The position numbers were made by a program, and so were the translations under genes. Below, piece after piece: positions 3,714-11,139 of a stretch of 64,000 nt of DNA. The notes under the pieces were generated by a model that saw only the letters and a program-made list of their open reading frames with translations, was not told where the DNA came from and searched no databases. Source of the DNA: Agarivorans litoreus (GTDB lineage: Bacteria; Pseudomonadota; Gammaproteobacteria; Enterobacterales; Celerinatantimonadaceae); contig NZ_BLPI01000001.1 of assembly GCF_019649015.1 (NCBI RefSeq), positions 4,087,001-4,151,000 on the forward strand, given 5' to 3'. The first letter of the stretch is position 1, and the number at the start of each line of letters is the position of its first letter.

Positions 3714-3848
3714 ATAAGGCTTGTTATTGCTATGAATTTAATGGGATTTTGGCTTTTAGGGCTAAGTTCTGTATTTAGTAAGCATTGCGCATTATAGTTA
3801 AATAATTCAATAAACAGCCTCGCGCTAATGGGGTTTCAAGGAAAGATT

Positions 3849-6800
3849 ATGTCGGTTGAGCAGTTGTTGTGGGTACTATTTGCCTTATTAAGCTTTATTA
3901 TGCTGCTGTTAAATCGACTTCGTAAAAGCAACCTAGAGAGTGTAAGTTTATTGCTCAGCTCTAGGAAAAGCATTCTAGTTATAGTGGCAATTTGTAGCGC
4001 TGCATTTGCCGTAATCGCTGCGATTACTGGCATAGGTTTGAAGCAACTTAAACATTATCAGCTCAATCAATTAGAAGAAGTTATTGGGTCTGTGCTTGAT
4101 ACTGCAGATGCTGGCATTGATGAATGGAAACAAGGTTGGCAATCGAAAGTTGATGCTATTGCTTTGGACCCAGCATTCCAGCATTTCTCTTACGTGCTTA
4201 TTGAATCTGAGCACAGTAAGGAAGGGCTACTTGCTAACCCGGCCTTAGAGAGTTTGCGTCAATCTATAGAAAATTACCGAACTGTTTTTGATGATTTAGG
4301 TTTTTTCATCATTTCTCGTGAGCGTATCAATATTGCTTCGATGCGCGATGAAAACCTAGGTGAAATAAATGTTATTACACGCCACTACCCTCATTTACTT
4401 AATCGGGTTTTTAAAGGCGAAACGGTGGTTATTCCGCCAATTCGCCCTGAAATCGTATTAGACGGTATGCAGCAAAACGGTTTTAAGAATGCTCCTTCAA
4501 CCATGTTTATTGCAGCTCCAATTAAAAATGGGGATGGCCTAGTTGTTGCCATTCTAACTTTACGTATGGATCCAGAGCGCGAATTTTCTCAATTACTAAA
4601 AGGGGCTCGAATTGGCAAGACAGGTGAAACCTACCTAGTTAGCCGTTCGGGGTACATGATTTCTCCGAGCAAATTTGAAGATGACTTAGTTCACTTAGGC
4701 TTGTTAGAACCTGAGCAATCATCAGTGTTGAATATCAAATTACAAGTACCAAGTTATACTCGTGAGCGACCAGAGTGGACAGAAAGCGGTTACGCTATTA
4801 TCGCCAAATCTAGCGGTTCTAATTTCCAAGGGTATTTAGATTATCGAGGTGTGCGAGTTGTGGGAGCGTGGCGCTGGGATGCGGATCTAGAAGTTGGCTT
4901 GGTTTATGAAATTGATCATGAAGAAGTCATGCAAGGTTATTTGCAGTTTCGTGATGTAGTGTTGTTAGTTCTGGGGTCTGCCTTAGCCTTCTGCGTCATT
5001 TTATTTGTATTGGTATTTGCCTTAGTGCGTAAAATTGACTTGAGATTAAGTGAATCGAAGCAAGAGCTAGAGCGACAAGTAGAACAACGTACCTTTGAAC
5101 TGAAAGAGCGCGAAAAAACCCTTTGGGATCTTTATGAATTCGCGCCAATTGCTTACGCTTCAGTAGATAAAGACGGTCATTTTTTGCAACACAATCAAAG
5201 TTTTGCTGAGCTAGTTGATGTTAACAGAGATGGCTTAACTGATTTGCTTCTTTACGATCTTGCTGAAGATTATGAGCATCGTGACAAGGCTAAAAAAATA
5301 CTAAGTGAAGCTTTTCAAGGACACAGCTTTAATGATGAAGTATTAAGTATATTTACTACCACAGGTCAGAAAAAAAATGTCAGCATAAATATAGTACCTA
5401 GCGTGGATGAAGAAGGCCTAATTAAGGTCGTGAAAGTATCATTAATTGATATGACTGAACGCTATCAAGCTCGCCAAGCTTTAGCTGATAACGAAGAGCG
5501 GATCCGCACTATTGTAGATACCATCGCCGACGGTATTGTGCTCATTGAGCAAACAGGCATTGTGCGCAGCTTTAGCCCCGCAGCCGAACAAATATTTGGT
5601 TATAGCGAAGCAGAAGTTGTGGGCAACAACGTGAAAATGTTAATGCCAAGCGATATTGCTGATCAACACGACCGGATACTAGCTGACTATAAACCCAAGA
5701 AAGAATCCTCGGTTATTGGTAATGAGCGAGAGGTATTTGGTGTACGTAAAAATGGTGAGCAGTTCCCCATGGAGCTGGCAGTTAAAGAAGTATTTTTAAA
5801 AGGACAACGTCACTTTACCGGGGTTGTGAGAGATATTACTGCCCGACGAAAAGCTCAGCAAAAACTTGCCGATAGTGAACGTCAGTTTAGAACCTTAACT
5901 AACAATTTGCAGTGTGTAGTTTATCGCATTCGCCTTAAAGAAGGCGAGTATCCAGAATGGTTATACATCAGTGAGCAAATAGAGGAGCAAACGGGATACC
6001 CCATCAGCGATTTTGTTGGGCCGCATCCAATTCGTCGTTATCAGGATCTGGTTCATCCTGATGACGCAGAAGAGAGTCTGGCGCGCGCCAGAACACTCAA
6101 TCAAAAAGGTGGGGCTATTTCTCAAGAGTTTCGCATAATTGATGCTTCTGGAAAAGTTAAATACATGCTGCAAAAGGCCTTTGTATCAATGGATGACGAA
6201 GGGCGGCCTGCTTATTCGGATGGTGCAATTTTTGACATTAGTGAAATAAAGCAGGTTGAAGCGCAGCTAAGGGAAAGTGAGGAACGATTAGACTCTGCTG
6301 CATCTGGTGCTGGTTTAGGCATGTGGGATTTCTACCCTCAAGAAGACCGAATTGAAGTTAATGCCATTTACGAAAGCATGTTAGGTTATGCCAAAGGAGA
6401 GCTGCGAGACGGCGATGGTCTTTGGGCTCGCCTTAAAGGTGACTCCGCGACTTGGACCAAATTGCTCCATCCAAGCGACGTAATAAGTAACCGAGAGAAG
6501 CTCGAGCAGCACTTGGCTGGCGAGAATGATGTGCTTCGCAATGAGATCCGCTTACGTTGTAAAAATGGTCAATATCGATGGATTCTAACTATCGGCCGAG
6601 TGTCCGAGCTTGACGAGCATGGCGAGCCGCTGCGTATTAATGGTATCCATGTTGATATTGAAGAAACCAAAAAGTTAGAAGCAGCCCTTAACGAAGCAAG
6701 AGCCTTAGCCGATAGTGCCAACCAAGCTAAAAGTGACTTCTTAGCTAATATGTCGCATGAGATCCGCACTCCAATGAACGCCATTATCGGTATGTCTTAT

Positions 6801-8927
6801 TTGGCACTAGAAACAGAGCTAGATAATAAGCAACGTAATTACATAGACAAAGTCCACCGCTCAGCAGAAGCCTTGCTTGGCATCATTAACGACATTCTCG
6901 ACTTTTCTAAGATCGAAGCAGGTAAGCTGGACATAGAAAAGATCGATTTTCGTTTAGAGGATATTCTCGATAATCTAGCTAATTTAGTGGGATTACGTGC
7001 AGAGCAAAAAAGTTTGGAGTTGCTATTTGATATTGACCCAAGCATCCCAACAGCATTAATTGGTGATCCCTTACGCCTAACCCAAATATTGGTTAATTTG
7101 TGTAATAACGCGGTTAAGTTTACTGAACAAGGCGTAGTGGTAGTAAAAATAGAAGCAAAACAGCAAGACAGGGAACAAGTCCAGTTGTACTTTTCGGTAA
7201 CCGATACCGGTATAGGTATGACGCCAGAGCAGCAAGCAAAGTTGTTTAAGCCTTTTTCACAAGCAGATAGTTCAACCACGCGTAAACATGGTGGTACGGG
7301 CTTAGGTTTGGCTATTTGTTTAAAACTGACTGAATTAATGGGCGGGAAAATAGCCTTAAGCAGTGAGCTAGGACAAGGCAGTTGCTTCTACTTTGAATTG
7401 CCTATGCAGATTCAAGAAAACGCGCAAACACTTCGCGATACTAATTCAGCACAACTTAGCAGCCTCAAAGCTTTGGTTGTGGATGACAATGCTAATGCTC
7501 GAGATATTACTCAACAAGTGCTAGAGAGTTTTGGCTTACAAGTTGAATCGGCCTCAAGCGGCAACGAAGCCATAACTTTGGTCCAGGAACATGCAAAAAC
7601 AACGGCCTTTGATATGGTCTTCATGGATTGGAAAATGCCAGAGATGGATGGCGTACAAACTGTCCAACATATTCAGGATCAGGGTTTTGACTTAGACGTA
7701 ATAATGGTGACTGCGTTTGGTCGTGACGAACTCACTAAAGAAGCTGAAGCGGTTAATATTGATGCGGTGTTAACTAAGCCTGTCACGCCGTCTCATTTGT
7801 TCGATACGATTGTGCAAGTACGTAAGATCGAAGTACTAGAACAAACACGTAGAGAAGCTCAGCAGCAAGGAGCCAACTTAGATATTGCTCAGTTACAGGG
7901 AGTAAATATTTTGGTCGCCGAAGATAACGACGTTAACCAAGAGCTGATTACCGAGTTGCTCGAATCCAACGGATTAAATTGCACTGTATGTGATGATGGC
8001 TCACAGGCTATTGAATACCTAAAAGAAAACAAGGTTGATGGGGTACTGATGGACTGCCAAATGCCGGTGATGGATGGGTACACAGCAACCAAAGTGATTC
8101 GATATCAGCTAGGTCTAAAAGAGCTGCCGATTATTGCGCTTACTGCAAATGCCTTGGCGGGAGATAGGGAGAAAGCGATTGAAGCAGGAATGAATGATCA
8201 CATTCCTAAGCCAATTAATGTGAATAGTTTGTTCAGCACGATGGCCAAATGGATTACGCCCGCTTCACCAACTGCGATTAATCAAAGTGGAGAATTAGCT
8301 AAGGTAGCTAATGAGCAAAACCTAGTGTTGCCAGAGGTTGATGGCTTAGATACCGAAGCTGGTTTGGCAAATGCTGCTGACAATAAAGCTTTATACCTGA
8401 AATTAATTGGTAAATTTGCCAGCGAAGAAAACACCCCTATGGAGGATTTAAATAGCGCTTATACTGAAGAACGTATTGGTGAGTTACAGCGAATGGCTCA
8501 TACCATAAAAGGTGTTACGGCTACGTTAGGCGCGCAAGCGGTGTCAGATTTAGCGGCAGTTGTAGAAAAGCAAGCCGAAGAAAATACAGTTCAGCCAAGC
8601 AGTATTGAAGCGCTAGGGAAGCAATTAATACCACTTCAACAAAGCTTACAGCAGTTTGTCTCCCAGATAGAAACAGCTGAAGTCGCAGAAGAGGGCGGTT
8701 CACAAAGTGTAAGTGAAGAAGAGTTATCGAGCTATCTACAGCAGCTTGCCCAACTACTTGATGACTTTGACGGCGAAAGTAACGATTATCTTGATAGCCA
8801 CGACTGTATTTTGCAAATCTTCCCGGCGCAGGCGAAAAAACTACAAATGCTTATTGAGGAATACGATTACGAAGCCGCTGGAGAAATTGTCCAAGAGATG
8901 CAGCAACAAGTGACTAAAAATGCCTAG
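3849..8927 (+). CDS. multi-PAS hybrid sensor histidine kinase
   Basis: This is a membrane sensor kinase of 1692 residues that can carry out a whole phosphorelay. I chose the ATG at 3849 (AAGGA seven bases before it) over the in-frame ATG at 3828. Order of parts, numbered from 3849: two hydrophobic segments within residues 1-65; a periplasmic dCache-like sensor to about 370; a membrane segment around 375-395; four PAS domains between about 420 and 945; HisKA with His970 (NMSHEIRTPMN); HATPase with GGTGLGLAI; receiver 1 (Asp1260, FMDWKMPEMDG); receiver 2 (Asp1402, LMDCQMPVMDG); an HPt domain with His1551 (AHTIKGV); then a tail of about 100 residues that I cannot assign. PAS2 resembles the FixL PAS but has Ser where FixL has its haem-ligand His. 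No response regulator gene is adjacent, so its output partner must be elsewhere. Confidence 0.93.
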   Translation: MSVEQLLWVLFALLSFIMLLLNRLRKSNLESVSLLLSSRKSILVIVAICSAAFAVIAAITGIGLKQLKHYQLNQLEEVIGSVLDTADAGIDEWKQGWQSKVDAIALDPAFQHFSYVLIESEHSKEGLLANPALESLRQSIENYRTVFDDLGFFIISRERINIASMRDENLGEINVITRHYPHLLNRVFKGETVVIPPIRPEIVLDGMQQNGFKNAPSTMFIAAPIKNGDGLVVAILTLRMDPEREFSQLLKGARIGKTGETYLVSRSGYMISPSKFEDDLVHLGLLEPEQSSVLNIKLQVPSYTRERPEWTESGYAIIAKSSGSNFQGYLDYRGVRVVGAWRWDADLEVGLVYEIDHEEVMQGYLQFRDVVLLVLGSALAFCVILFVLVFALVRKIDLRLSESKQELERQVEQRTFELKEREKTLWDLYEFAPIAYASVDKDGHFLQHNQSFAELVDVNRDGLTDLLLYDLAEDYEHRDKAKKILSEAFQGHSFNDEVLSIFTTTGQKKNVSINIVPSVDEEGLIKVVKVSLIDMTERYQARQALADNEERIRTIVDTIADGIVLIEQTGIVRSFSPAAEQIFGYSEAEVVGNNVKMLMPSDIADQHDRILADYKPKKESSVIGNEREVFGVRKNGEQFPMELAVKEVFLKGQRHFTGVVRDITARRKAQQKLADSERQFRTLTNNLQCVVYRIRLKEGEYPEWLYISEQIEEQTGYPISDFVGPHPIRRYQDLVHPDDAEESLARARTLNQKGGAISQEFRIIDASGKVKYMLQKAFVSMDDEGRPAYSDGAIFDISEIKQVEAQLRESEERLDSAASGAGLGMWDFYPQEDRIEVNAIYESMLGYAKGELRDGDGLWARLKGDSATWTKLLHPSDVISNREKLEQHLAGENDVLRNEIRLRCKNGQYRWILTIGRVSELDEHGEPLRINGIHVDIEETKKLEAALNEARALADSANQAKSDFLANMSHEIRTPMNAIIGMSYLALETELDNKQRNYIDKVHRSAEALLGIINDILDFSKIEAGKLDIEKIDFRLEDILDNLANLVGLRAEQKSLELLFDIDPSIPTALIGDPLRLTQILVNLCNNAVKFTEQGVVVVKIEAKQQDREQVQLYFSVTDTGIGMTPEQQAKLFKPFSQADSSTTRKHGGTGLGLAICLKLTELMGGKIALSSELGQGSCFYFELPMQIQENAQTLRDTNSAQLSSLKALVVDDNANARDITQQVLESFGLQVESASSGNEAITLVQEHAKTTAFDMVFMDWKMPEMDGVQTVQHIQDQGFDLDVIMVTAFGRDELTKEAEAVNIDAVLTKPVTPSHLFDTIVQVRKIEVLEQTRREAQQQGANLDIAQLQGVNILVAEDNDVNQELITELLESNGLNCTVCDDGSQAIEYLKENKVDGVLMDCQMPVMDGYTATKVIRYQLGLKELPIIALTANALAGDREKAIEAGMNDHIPKPINVNSLFSTMAKWITPASPTAINQSGELAKVANEQNLVLPEVDGLDTEAGLANAADNKALYLKLIGKFASEENTPMEDLNSAYTEERIGELQRMAHTIKGVTATLGAQAVSDLAAVVEKQAEENTVQPSSIEALGKQLIPLQQSLQQFVSQIETAEVAEEGGSQSVSEEELSSYLQQLAQLLDDFDGESNDYLDSHDCILQIFPAQAKKLQMLIEEYDYEAAGEIVQEMQQQVTKNA

Positions 8928-9005: not shown

Positions 9006-10040
9006 GTGACTCAAACACTTACCATTACCAGACCGGATGATTGGCATCTTCACTTGCGCGATGGCGCTATGTTAGAGGTAGCAGCAAATGCTACCGCTAA
9101 GCACTTTTCTCGAGCCATCATCATGCCTAACCTAACCCCACCGGTTACTCAAGTTGCTGATGCTAATGCTTATTATCAGCGCATTAAACAGGCGCTTCCT
9201 GAGCAAAGCCAGTTTGAACCATTGATGACGCTTTATCTAACCGATGCCACTACCCCTGAAATAATCGCAGAAGCTGCGGCAAGTGGAATTGTTAAAGCAT
9301 GTAAGTTGTATCCAGCCAATGCAACGACTAACTCTGCCCATGGCGTAACCGACGTTGCCGCTCTTCGCCCTGTATTTGAAGCAATGGCAGAACATGGTTT
9401 GTTACTGTTGGTTCACGGCGAGGTGACTCACGCCGATATTGATATCTTTGATAGAGAAGCGGCATTTATTGACGCTCACATGCGTGGTTTGGTGGAATCG
9501 CTGCCTGATCTCAAAATTGTCTTTGAACACATCACTACCGCTGAAGCGGCCGAATTTGTAATGAATGCACCAGACAATGTAGCTGCAACCATTACGCCAC
9601 AGCATTTGATGTACAACCGTAATCATCTGCTAGCGGGTGGTTTACGTCCTCATAACTACTGTCTGCCGGTGCTTAAGCGTCAAACTCACCAAAAAGCTTT
9701 ACAGCAAGCAGTGGCTAGCGGTACCAAAAAAATATTCTTAGGAACGGATTCGGCTCCTCATGTTCAAGGGGCTAAAGAAAGTGCCTGTGGATGTGCGGGT
9801 TGTTACAGTGCACCTGCTGCGATTGAATTGTATGCCGAAATTTTTGAGCAACTAGGCATATTAGATAAACTTGAAGCCTTTGCTAGCTTTAATGGCCCAG
9901 ACTTTTATGGCCTACCAAGAAACACAGATACCATTACCTTGACCAAAGAAGCTTGGCAGGTGCCTGGTTCGGTAAAAGTTGATGGCGAAAACTTAGTGCC
10001 ATTCTTTGCTAACGAAACTTTAAACTGGCAAGTTAAATAG
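9006..10040 (+). CDS. pyrC: dihydroorotase (class II type)
   Basis: This enzyme closes carbamoyl-aspartate to dihydroorotate in pyrimidine synthesis in the cytoplasm. The 344 residues match the short bacterial PyrC form. Metal ligands are visible: DWHLHLRDG (His14, His16), the lysine that becomes carboxylated in [13 protein letters not shown] (Lys100), LVHGEV (His137), FEHITT (His175) and the Asp in LGTDSAPH. The start is GTG at 9006, with a weak AGGGG-type site before it. It is monocistronic and runs towards the minus-strand sRNA block that begins three bases after its stop. The window also holds pyrD, far away, as is usual in gammaproteobacteria. Confidence 0.96.
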
Positions 10041-10042
10041 GC

Positions 10043-10143
10043 AAAAAAAGAGCCCTTTGCTCTAGAGCAAAGGGCTTGCATAATCGTGTAATGTTTACAC
10101 AGCAATAGGTAACTAAACGCGTGACTAAGTTAGCGACTCAGTC
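10043..10143 (-). ncRNA. putative small RNA, copy A of three
   Basis: This is the first of three tandem minus-strand units. Read on the minus strand, the transcript begins near 10143 with hairpin GACTGAG/CTTAGTC. It then has an unpaired block conserved in all copies (GCGTTTAGTTACCTATTGC), a small hairpin GTGTAA/TTACAC, and a Rho-independent terminator with an 11-base-pair stem (AGCCCTTTGCT/AGCAAAGGGCT) followed by a T-run. A TATTTA -10 box lies at 10148-10153. Length is about 101 nt. No open reading frame of note is present. I do not recognise the family. Confidence 0.75.
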
Positions 10144-10181
10144 GATATAAATAATAACCACGCAGGACCAATCAGGCTATT

Positions 10182-10193
10182 ACCCAAATGGGT
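10182..10193. promoter_or_regulatory. 12-base palindrome upstream of sRNA copy A
   Basis: This perfect palindrome, ACCCATTTGGGT on the minus strand, is centred about 44 bases before the predicted start of copy A. It is embedded in a longer conserved block beginning TTTCACCC. The same element sits at the same distance before the other two copies, which fits an activator site. Confidence 0.6.
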
Positions 10194-10262
10194 GAAATTT
10201 AAAAGTTAATAAATTTCCCATATATTTTAATGCCTTGCATACTCCTCACTGTTTAACAAAGC

Positions 10263-10367
10263 AAAAAAAAGCCCTTTTACATAAGTAAAAGGGCCTGCGT
10301 AAAATTTGTGTAAAGGTTGTACACAGCAATAGGTAACTAAACGCGTGACTAAGTTAGCAACTCAGTC
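10263..10367 (-). ncRNA. putative small RNA, copy B of three
   Basis: This is the second tandem unit, about 105 nt, starting near 10367. Hairpin 1 is GACTGAG/CTTAGTC with one G-U pair. The conserved unpaired block GCGTTTAGTTACCTATTGC is identical to copy A. Hairpin 2 is GTGTA/TACAC. The terminator stem GCCCTTTTAC/GTAAAAGGGC differs from copy A on both arms while staying paired, and is followed by eight T. The -10 box is TATTTA, inside TAGTATTTAACA. Confidence 0.75.
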
Positions 10368-10405
10368 GTGTTAAATACTATCTTTGAACTAGCCCTCTCA
10401 CCATT

Positions 10406-10417
10406 CCCCAAATGGGT
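10406..10417. promoter_or_regulatory. 12-base palindrome upstream of sRNA copy B
   Basis: The minus strand reads ACCCATTTGGGG here, one base off the palindrome found at copies A and C. It is centred about 44 bases before the predicted start of copy B. It is followed by AATGGTGAGA, as at copy C. Confidence 0.55.
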
Positions 10418-10459
10418 GAATTAGCTATTTCTTTCACTCAAGATTATGAAATTAAAGAC

Positions 10460-10565
10460 AAAAAAAGACCCTTTGCATTGGATAACAAAGGGCCTGCATA
10501 AATTTGTGTAAAGATGTACACAGCAATAGGTAACTAAACGCGATGACTGAGTTAGCAGCTCAGTC
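10460..10565 (-). ncRNA. putative small RNA, copy C of three
   Basis: This is the third tandem unit, about 106 nt, starting near 10565. Hairpin 1 here is GACTGAG/CTCAGTC, where the G-U pair of copies A and B has become G-C. The conserved unpaired block is the same apart from one extra base at its start. Hairpin 2 is GTGTA/TACAC. The terminator stem is CCCTTTG/CAAAGGG, followed by seven T. The -10 box is TATTTA, inside TAGTATTTATAT. This is the copy nearest the divergent CBS-domain gene. Confidence 0.75.
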
Positions 10566-10603
10566 GATATAAATACTACTCCTCGGCTATTATTCTCACC
10601 ATT

Positions 10604-10615
10604 ACCCAAATGGGT
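10604..10615. promoter_or_regulatory. 12-base palindrome upstream of sRNA copy C
   Basis: A perfect ACCCATTTGGGT palindrome (minus strand) is centred about 45 bases before the predicted start of copy C, as in copies A and B. It is about 105 bases before the CBS-domain gene on the other strand and could affect both. Confidence 0.6.
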
Positions 10616-10719
10616 GAAATTTGCCTTTGATAGCTTAAATGCCTGCTTGTATGCGCTAGCTGGAGTAATTCGATTACGCCAACTAAGCTAACAGTAAGGC
10701 AACAGCAGGAGTAAAGGTT

Positions 10720-11139
10720 ATGCCCGAGAACCTCAAAGTGCGCGATTACATGTTAATGCGCCCGGTTTGCTTTACCGCAAAACAACCCATCGCAGAAGTT
10801 GTACATAGCTTGTTAGAGCATAAACAACTAGGCGCTCCAGTGATTGATGAACAAAAGCATGTTATCGGTTGGATCTCCGAGCAAGACTGCTTAAAGAGTT
10901 TGCTTGAAGCTACATATCACTGTGAAACAGTATCGTTAGTGGAAGATCTGATGCGCACAGATGTATTAAGTGTTGGCCCCGAAACCAGTATTTTAGAACT
11001 TGCCCAAAGCATGTTAATGCAAAAACCCAAAATGTATCCAGTCATCGAGCAGGGCAAGCTACTGGGCCTAATTACTCGTGAAGAGGTCTTAGCTGGCATC
11101 GATAAACATCTACATAGTTGCTATAAGCAGGTGAGTTAG
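10720..11139 (+). CDS. CBS-domain pair protein
   Basis: This protein of 139 residues is made of little more than two CBS domains, which bind adenosine nucleotides and act as energy sensors in many proteins. The first repeat spans about residues 8-65 (VRDYMLMRPVCFTAKQPIAE ... GWISEQDCLKSLL). The second spans about 76-130 (VEDLMRTDVLSVGPETSILE ... LLGLITREEVLAGI). An AGGAGTAAAGG stretch precedes the ATG. A terminator follows at 11174-11200. There is no catalytic domain, so it probably acts by binding a partner that cannot be named from here. It is divergent from the triplicated sRNA block. Confidence 0.85.
   Translation: MPENLKVRDYMLMRPVCFTAKQPIAEVVHSLLEHKQLGAPVIDEQKHVIGWISEQDCLKSLLEATYHCETVSLVEDLMRTDVLSVGPETSILELAQSMLMQKPKMYPVIEQGKLLGLITREEVLAGIDKHLHSCYKQVS

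Follow-up and report, generated by a model that had tools for sequence, protein, structure and literature searches.

A tandem array of apparently uncatalogued sibling small RNAs in the marine genus Agarivorans

Introduction

The closest described systems to the locus considered here are small RNAs (sRNAs) that are encoded more than once in a genome. OmrA and OmrB are arranged in tandem and have a common 5' pairing region, Qrr and GlmY/GlmZ are produced from sigma-54 promoters, to which LuxO sites are added in the case of Qrr, and the sponges of the CsrB/RsmX type comprise several RNAs per genome with an upstream palindrome that is bound by a response regulator. Listeria, the host of the LhrC RNAs, belongs to a different phylum. 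LhrC1-5 have been described as a multicopy sRNA family under the control of one regulator, LisR (PMC5880928). In an account of sibling sRNAs which also counts Qrr and GlmY/GlmZ among their number, OmrA and OmrB are given as siblings from a duplication with redundant targets, and PrrF1 and PrrF2 as near-identical tandem sRNAs of P. aeruginosa that were found through a Fur consensus site together with a Rho-independent terminator; how and why sibling sRNAs multiply is posed there as an open question (PMC4211561).

What, then, is the array of three similar units that lies beside pyrC in Agarivorans, and what would its products do? The reading preferred here, to which we assign a probability of about 0.7 from comparison of sequences, is that the units are members of a new family of sibling, activator-controlled, base-pairing sRNAs, each with a sigma-70-type promoter and an intrinsic terminator. 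Such a family would add sRNAs with strong comparative support to a marine genus for which a search of the open-licence literature, for Agarivorans and small RNA, found no paper with either term in the title or abstract.

The array and its units

The array sits between pyrC and a gene for a two-CBS-domain protein, both on the plus strand of the window (the whole 64-kb stretch of DNA that was analysed). It consists of three minus-strand units of 102-107 nt, in each of which a promoter is followed by a 5' hairpin, an invariant 20-nt block, a small hairpin and a T-tailed terminator. The features, in window coordinates, are as follows.

9006..10040, plus strand: pyrC, dihydroorotase, convergent neighbour
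10043..10144, minus strand: sRNA copy A, predicted transcript, 5' end at about 10144 and 3' end at the T-run at 10043
10051..10076, minus strand: copy A terminator stem-loop
10102..10121, minus strand: 20-nt invariant block of copy A, CGCGTTTAGTTACCTATTGC, the same in 19/19 copies
10151..10156, minus strand: TATTAT, probable -10 box of copy A, for which spacing gives a poor -35, TAGCCT
10180..10196, minus strand: operator-like palindrome of copy A, TTCACCCATTTGGGTAA
10263..10368, minus strand: sRNA copy B, predicted transcript
10269..10296, minus strand: copy B terminator stem-loop
10326..10345, minus strand: 20-nt invariant block of copy B
10375..10380, minus strand: TAGTAT, probable -10 box of copy B, for which spacing gives a -35 of TGGTGA
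10404..10420, minus strand: operator-like palindrome of copy B, TTCACCCATTTGGGGAA
10460..10566, minus strand: sRNA copy C, predicted transcript
10466..10495, minus strand: copy C terminator stem-loop
10523..10542, minus strand: 20-nt invariant block of copy C
10573..10578, minus strand: TAGTAT, probable -10 box of copy C, for which spacing gives a -35 of TGGTGA
10602..10618, minus strand: operator-like palindrome of copy C, TTCACCCATTTGGGTAA
10720..11139, plus strand: gene of the two-CBS-domain protein, divergent neighbour, also found beside the second-genus relative

Within the transcribed part the order is hairpin GACTGAG/CTYAGTC, block CGCGTTTAGTTACCTATTGC, hairpin GTGTA/TACAC and an intrinsic terminator with at least 7 T. 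A first-pass annotation had described three minus-strand units with these parts at a spacing of about 200-220 bases; the units are where it had placed them, and the copy-to-copy distances are 224 and 197-198 bases. Folding of the copies is much more stable than that of dinucleotide shuffles (z = -4.06, -5.70 and -5.06, with 0/200 shuffles as good for each copy), and three of the six terminator-like sites between 9900 and 10800, where shuffles give 0.8, are those of the copies. With a -10, a palindrome and a terminator for each of three related genes, the array has the make-up of sibling sRNAs, that is at least two related genes per genome with their own promoter and terminator.

Comparison with the described systems shows likeness in organisation and difference in detail. 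The tandem arrangement of siblings is that of PrrF1/PrrF2, but a Fur box of the PrrF/RyhB kind is lacking: the best match to the consensus is 12/19, and the four best matches lie at differing relative places. With Qrr and GlmY/GlmZ there is a multicopy or paired sibling logic, so that the likeness to them in the first-pass annotation holds for copy number and logic. It fails for promoter and sequence, as the best match to the sigma-54 consensus TGGCAC-N5-TTGCW on the minus strand of 10041-10700 is 8/11 and falls inside copy A, the best one listed upstream of a copy being 7/11. In its place the units have another palindrome, to all appearance a dedicated one. LhrC1-5 are likewise multicopy, with one regulator where here there is one shared palindrome. 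The repeated GGA of the CsrB/RsmX sponges is absent (0 GGA in copies A, B and C), and the best match to their TGTAAG-N6-CTTACA site is 8/12. PrrF1/PrrF2, OmrA/OmrB, Qrr, GlmY/GlmZ and LhrC1-5 are all set apart by the Rfam result, where 0/4227 families reached the gathering score anywhere in the window, in agreement with the earlier impression of no recognisable family; a permissive search of 9800-10900 returned 10 matches that were all far below gathering score, the best (E 0.039) being to a Plasmodium family. No match to the array was found among plasmid or phage records. The array very probably represents a new sRNA family, albeit one of a well-known kind.

Distribution and conservation in Agarivorans

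A DNA search of 40 genomes (the own genome and relatives) gave matches in seven, all of them Agarivorans and none in other genera. Together they hold 19 copies, with three in each of G000, G001, G002 and G004, four in G003, two in G005 and one in G006, and all found copies of a genome lie at a single locus. R1, a model of the 19 copies, found no extra copy above noise in these genomes (next best E 0.235). When named genomes were scanned for an exact match to 19 bases of the block, a scan that may omit the genome of the window and those close to it, a single record matched, that of Agarivorans sp. Toyoura001. The stems and the block are kept in all seven genomes, which supports the earlier proposal of multicopy sRNA genes, and because copies recur in the Agarivorans relatives examined, the three units are very probably real genes of an apparently uncatalogued sRNA. 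Of the outcomes that the first-pass annotation had named as refuting, a match to an Rfam family and a loss of the stems at homologous loci were both looked for, and neither occurred.

By position, copies A, B and C can be matched as orthologues across G000, G001, G002 and G004. In a 226-column alignment the orthologues are on average 91% identical (18 pairs) and the paralogues of the same genome 65% (12 pairs), from which it follows that the duplications predate the split of the species and that all three copies have since been kept, distinct and intact. The four copies of G003 (L008:1101-1886) include three that are 92-97% alike, so that this array seems to have been amplified recently or to have undergone gene conversion. 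In the one-copy genome G006 (L279:585-5521) about 4.9 kb separate the sRNA from the CBS gene, an interval that includes a gene for a membrane-bound PQQ-dependent dehydrogenase.

Covariation was computed on the 14 distinct rows of the 19-copy alignment. Standard pairs make up 99.3% of the 294 cells, 24 cells are changed on both sides, and the covariation score is 0.261; for each of these values 0/500 shuffles were as high, and sliding the partner by 1-3 columns lowers pairing to 22-46%. Double changes occur in 5/21 pairs, four of them in the terminator, and one pair of hairpin 1 appears as C-G, U-A and the intermediate U-G. The number of pairs with a double change (80/500 shuffles as high) and that of further pair types (421/500) do not go beyond the shuffles. 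Hairpin 2 gives no covariation evidence because it is invariant in all copies. By these comparative measures pairing has been maintained in both hairpin 1 and the terminator stem; the G-U to G-C change in hairpin 1 and the terminator stems that differ on both arms yet stay paired, both noticed originally in the three copies, are real and extend to all 19.

When the 19 copies are compared in pairs, mean identity reaches 1.00 for the block, 0.95 for the palindrome, 0.88 for hairpin 1 and 0.81 for the -10, as against 0.48 after the terminator and 0.40 in the promoter spacer. The block has thus been retained while the spacers diverged, as the first-pass annotation had it. Its view of the block as almost invariant and unpaired is borne out for invariance; for pairing it is right in part, the predicted mean unpaired probability being 0.40-0.60 over the 14 distinct copies. 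The palindrome, which had gone unremarked, is conserved about as strongly as the RNA.

Promoter and palindrome

A -10 box, TATTTA, had been proposed for the units, and a box at this place is retained here in a shifted register. The TATTTA columns read GATTTA or GATTTG in G003 and GCTTGT in G006, and a better choice is the overlapping TANNAT (TATTAT or TAGTAT), since its T, A and final T are invariant in 19/19 copies and fit a -10. The -35 that follows from spacing, TRGNNN, is a poor match, with which the failure of a simple sigma-70 scan to list any of the three promoters is in line.

At a fixed distance upstream of this poor -35 each copy has the palindrome WTCACCCATTTGGGKAAT, made up of the half-site ACCCA and a 2-base spacer; counted in columns, the palindrome is centred some 43.5 bases ahead of the likely start. 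From the palindrome to the start of the RNA there is no gap in any of the 19 copies, though the bases between palindrome and -10 are only 40% identical. The combination of a fixed site with a poor -35 would correspond to a class II activator position and suggests that the palindrome is a candidate site for such an activator. In the own genome the 17-base site occurs three times with 0-1 mismatch, always at these promoters; with up to 3 mismatches there are 36 occurrences against 30 for the reversed control, and the three sites with 2 mismatches lie within or at the end of open frames. The palindrome has no good match to the consensus sites of Fur, CRP, FNR, GacA or sigma-54. A 12/14 match to a NarL-type consensus was set aside, as it lies inside the RNAs and away from the palindrome. 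A literature search with the palindrome core and the seed found no related paper. The palindrome offers a handle for finding the activator.

A relative in a second genus

The CBS protein has a match in all 12 genomes of the family that were examined. In two of them (G008 and G010), of one other genus which we guess to be Celerinatantimonas, GTTTAGTTACCTTTT lies upstream of the CBS gene and is followed by a hairpin, TACGC and a 12-bp terminator. This relative is shorter and single-copy and keeps the seed GUUUAGUUACCU (L093:2090 and L094:2356), and the 15-base pattern GTTTAGTTACCTWTT occurs once in each genome, both times directly upstream of the CBS gene. Since the seed begins 7-9 nt after the best -10, it would form the 5' end of the RNA or lie close to it. 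L093 and L094 lack the 5' hairpin and, with up to 3 mismatches allowed, the ACCCA-TT-TGGGT palindrome. On its other side the locus is flanked in G008 by an exodeoxyribonuclease I gene, and G010 looks alike by eye. The CBS gene also occurs, with no seed beside it, in three genomes from two further genera of the family, and in another genus the CBS match (L095, G007) has one TAA inside and is perhaps a decayed gene. A literature search found no paper joining Celerinatantimonas and sRNA.

Model searches recover these relatives poorly. With R1, one sequence of the pair gave a weak match (E 0.00091 in 6,804 bases) and L093 gave none; R2, a model built with both second-genus sequences, missed G010 at E 0.02 and scored an unrelated-looking gene-end terminator, L169, at 38.4 bits, above G008 (37.9) and G010 (26.9). 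Since such scores alone are no proof, kinship with the second genus rests on seed identity and synteny. Against OmrA/OmrB, L094 reached 17.8 bits (gathering score 40; E 0.52), and L093 gave no listing.

These comparisons point to the seed as the old part of the RNA, with 5' hairpin, palindrome and tandem arrangement seen only in Agarivorans. How might the array have been built up? A tentative scheme, which we hold to be somewhat less probable than not, starts from an old single-copy RNA with its seed at the 5' end and an ordinary promoter, to which a hairpin, an activator operator and one to four tandem copies would have been added while the 12-nt seed stayed fixed. In the same scheme the 5' hairpin would have a protective role, and the regulon of the activator, at tight match, would be this array alone, one regulator for one sRNA array. 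Whatever its course, the genomes provide a graded natural set, with 1, 2, 3 or 4 copies that share one conserved palindrome, and beside it a single-copy relative that has no palindrome, which makes the question of sibling multiplication directly testable.

Further afield, R1 was run on 394 genomes of the order and matched five outside the genus at E 0.0017-0.0095 per genome, about chance level for 394; two of the five (L050 and L052) were examined and are by eye terminators at gene ends. R2, run on 295 genomes, matched 15 genomes outside the family at E up to 0.02, of which the 11 examined are by eye mostly gene-end terminators. The 15-base seed pattern occurs outside the family in 13/382 genomes, once each, as compared with 30 matches in 28 genomes for the reversed control, and the 13 contexts were judged by eye to be chance. 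In a genome of another family of the order (G033, L178:1501-1590), GTTTGTTACCTATTTCAGC, which is seed-like with one change, is followed by a terminator and may be chance or a far relative.

Proposed function and target leads

Action in trans by base pairing, as originally proposed, is likely. An activator bound to the palindrome would switch all copies on together, and several copies would give dosage. The RNA would probably work with Hfq, to judge from the U7 tail and the A/U-rich stretch before the terminator, and the UUUAGUUACCU part of the 20-nt block CGCGUUUAGUUACCUAUUGC would pair with mRNAs that hold AGGUAACUAAA-like sequences. Some of these sites would overlap the ribosome binding site, where pairing would block translation; the UUACCU of the block is complementary to AGGUAA, that is the ribosome binding site and the next bases.

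Two places stand out as leads, both weak as targets, with ccmE the better of the two. At the start region of ccmE (CcmE by NCBIfam; junction at L224:201-219, G000 contig 1 at about 3,825,387) the block can pair over 14 contiguous positions, with -25.5 kcal/mol in 6/7 genomes and -18.8 in G006, as against -10.2 to -11.3 kcal/mol for the same region in three genomes of genera without the RNA and -22.0 for the strongest-pairing among 2,970 90-base stretches taken at random from the window, values to be read knowing that the site also encodes the end of ccmD and that the comparison amounts to a test of many genes. No match to ccmE was found in either second-genus genome, so that ccmE cannot be the old target. 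In G006 an 18-base perfect complement of the block (L126:1500-1517, contig 1 at about 1,982,910; -29.1 kcal/mol) lies 36 bases ahead of the start codon of a small gene (L126:1554-1994), in the leader of that gene and within a prophage-like immunity region that has CII-like and repressor-like proteins. The exact 18 bases were found in no viral contig, and no relatives of the small gene were found in viral contigs or phage records; the leader may be a target, a decoy or chance.

Pattern searches gave larger sets. In three genomes AGGTAACT is found close before an ATG 112 times, with own copies accounting for 5, and the reversed pattern 66 times, an excess that may be plain ribosome binding sites; the scan of these matches covered 50 loci (49 places), of which the ones whose open frame had at least 35 codons were examined. 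A genus-wide search gave at least 346 matches in the seven genomes, own copies included, against 242 for the control (30 loci examined, many of them own copies), and a further one gave 134 in three genomes (8 own copies) against 103 (14/30 loci examined). Start-site matches are kept in two or three genomes for genes that we take to be phosphate-permease-like and RseA-like, with pairing (-13.0 and -15.4 kcal/mol) only over the ribosome binding site. A site that is perfect with G-U pairs in three genomes (L243, L245, L256) was set aside, there being no start codon after it and, by eye, a position antisense to a coding frame. Among the pattern matches examined there was no convincing conserved target set.

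Alternative readings

That result leaves some room for the RNAs to titrate an RNA-binding protein instead, binding it at the invariant block or at the GCUAACU loop in place of pairing with mRNA, and both a multicopy array and complete invariance of the block would also fit a protein site. We consider this unlikely. A CsrA/RsmA sponge drops out for want of GGA in the window's copies, the conserved part is one stretch with no motif repeated inside the RNA, and the second genus keeps the seed but not the 5' hairpin. The preferred reading remains that of base-pairing siblings.

Three tandem units with similar flanks, at one to four copies per genome, are also what local tandem duplication or a mobile palindromic repeat element without function could leave behind, a reading that we regard as very improbable given that the copies found keep to one locus in each of the seven genomes and that paralogues of 65% identity overall have a block at 100% and a palindrome at no less than 89%, which is unlike decaying repeats. 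Still less probable is that the transcripts encode a small protein or its leader. A TTG falls within the invariant block, and hence in all 19 copies, and its frame is open to the end of the RNA in 15/19; in the other four it closes after 14-15 codons, gaps of 1 or 2 columns (63/69 gap runs) put any frame out of register, none of the ATG or GTG frames is common to all copies, the open frames would cross the terminator hairpin, and what is conserved behind the block is stem pairing. An antisense element or terminator acting in cis on pyrC, as the end of copy A 3 bases past the pyrC stop codon might suggest, is just as improbable, because the distance from pyrC to the end of the RNA is about 220 bases for copy B and 420 for copy C, both of which have their own -10, palindrome and terminator, and because the second-genus relative adjoins the exodeoxyribonuclease I gene and not pyrC.

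Upstream of pyrC the window also has a very large hybrid sensor kinase (1699 aa; 3828-8927, plus strand), for which a PAS domain is the only one above the curated cut-off among the 25 NCBIfam families shown.
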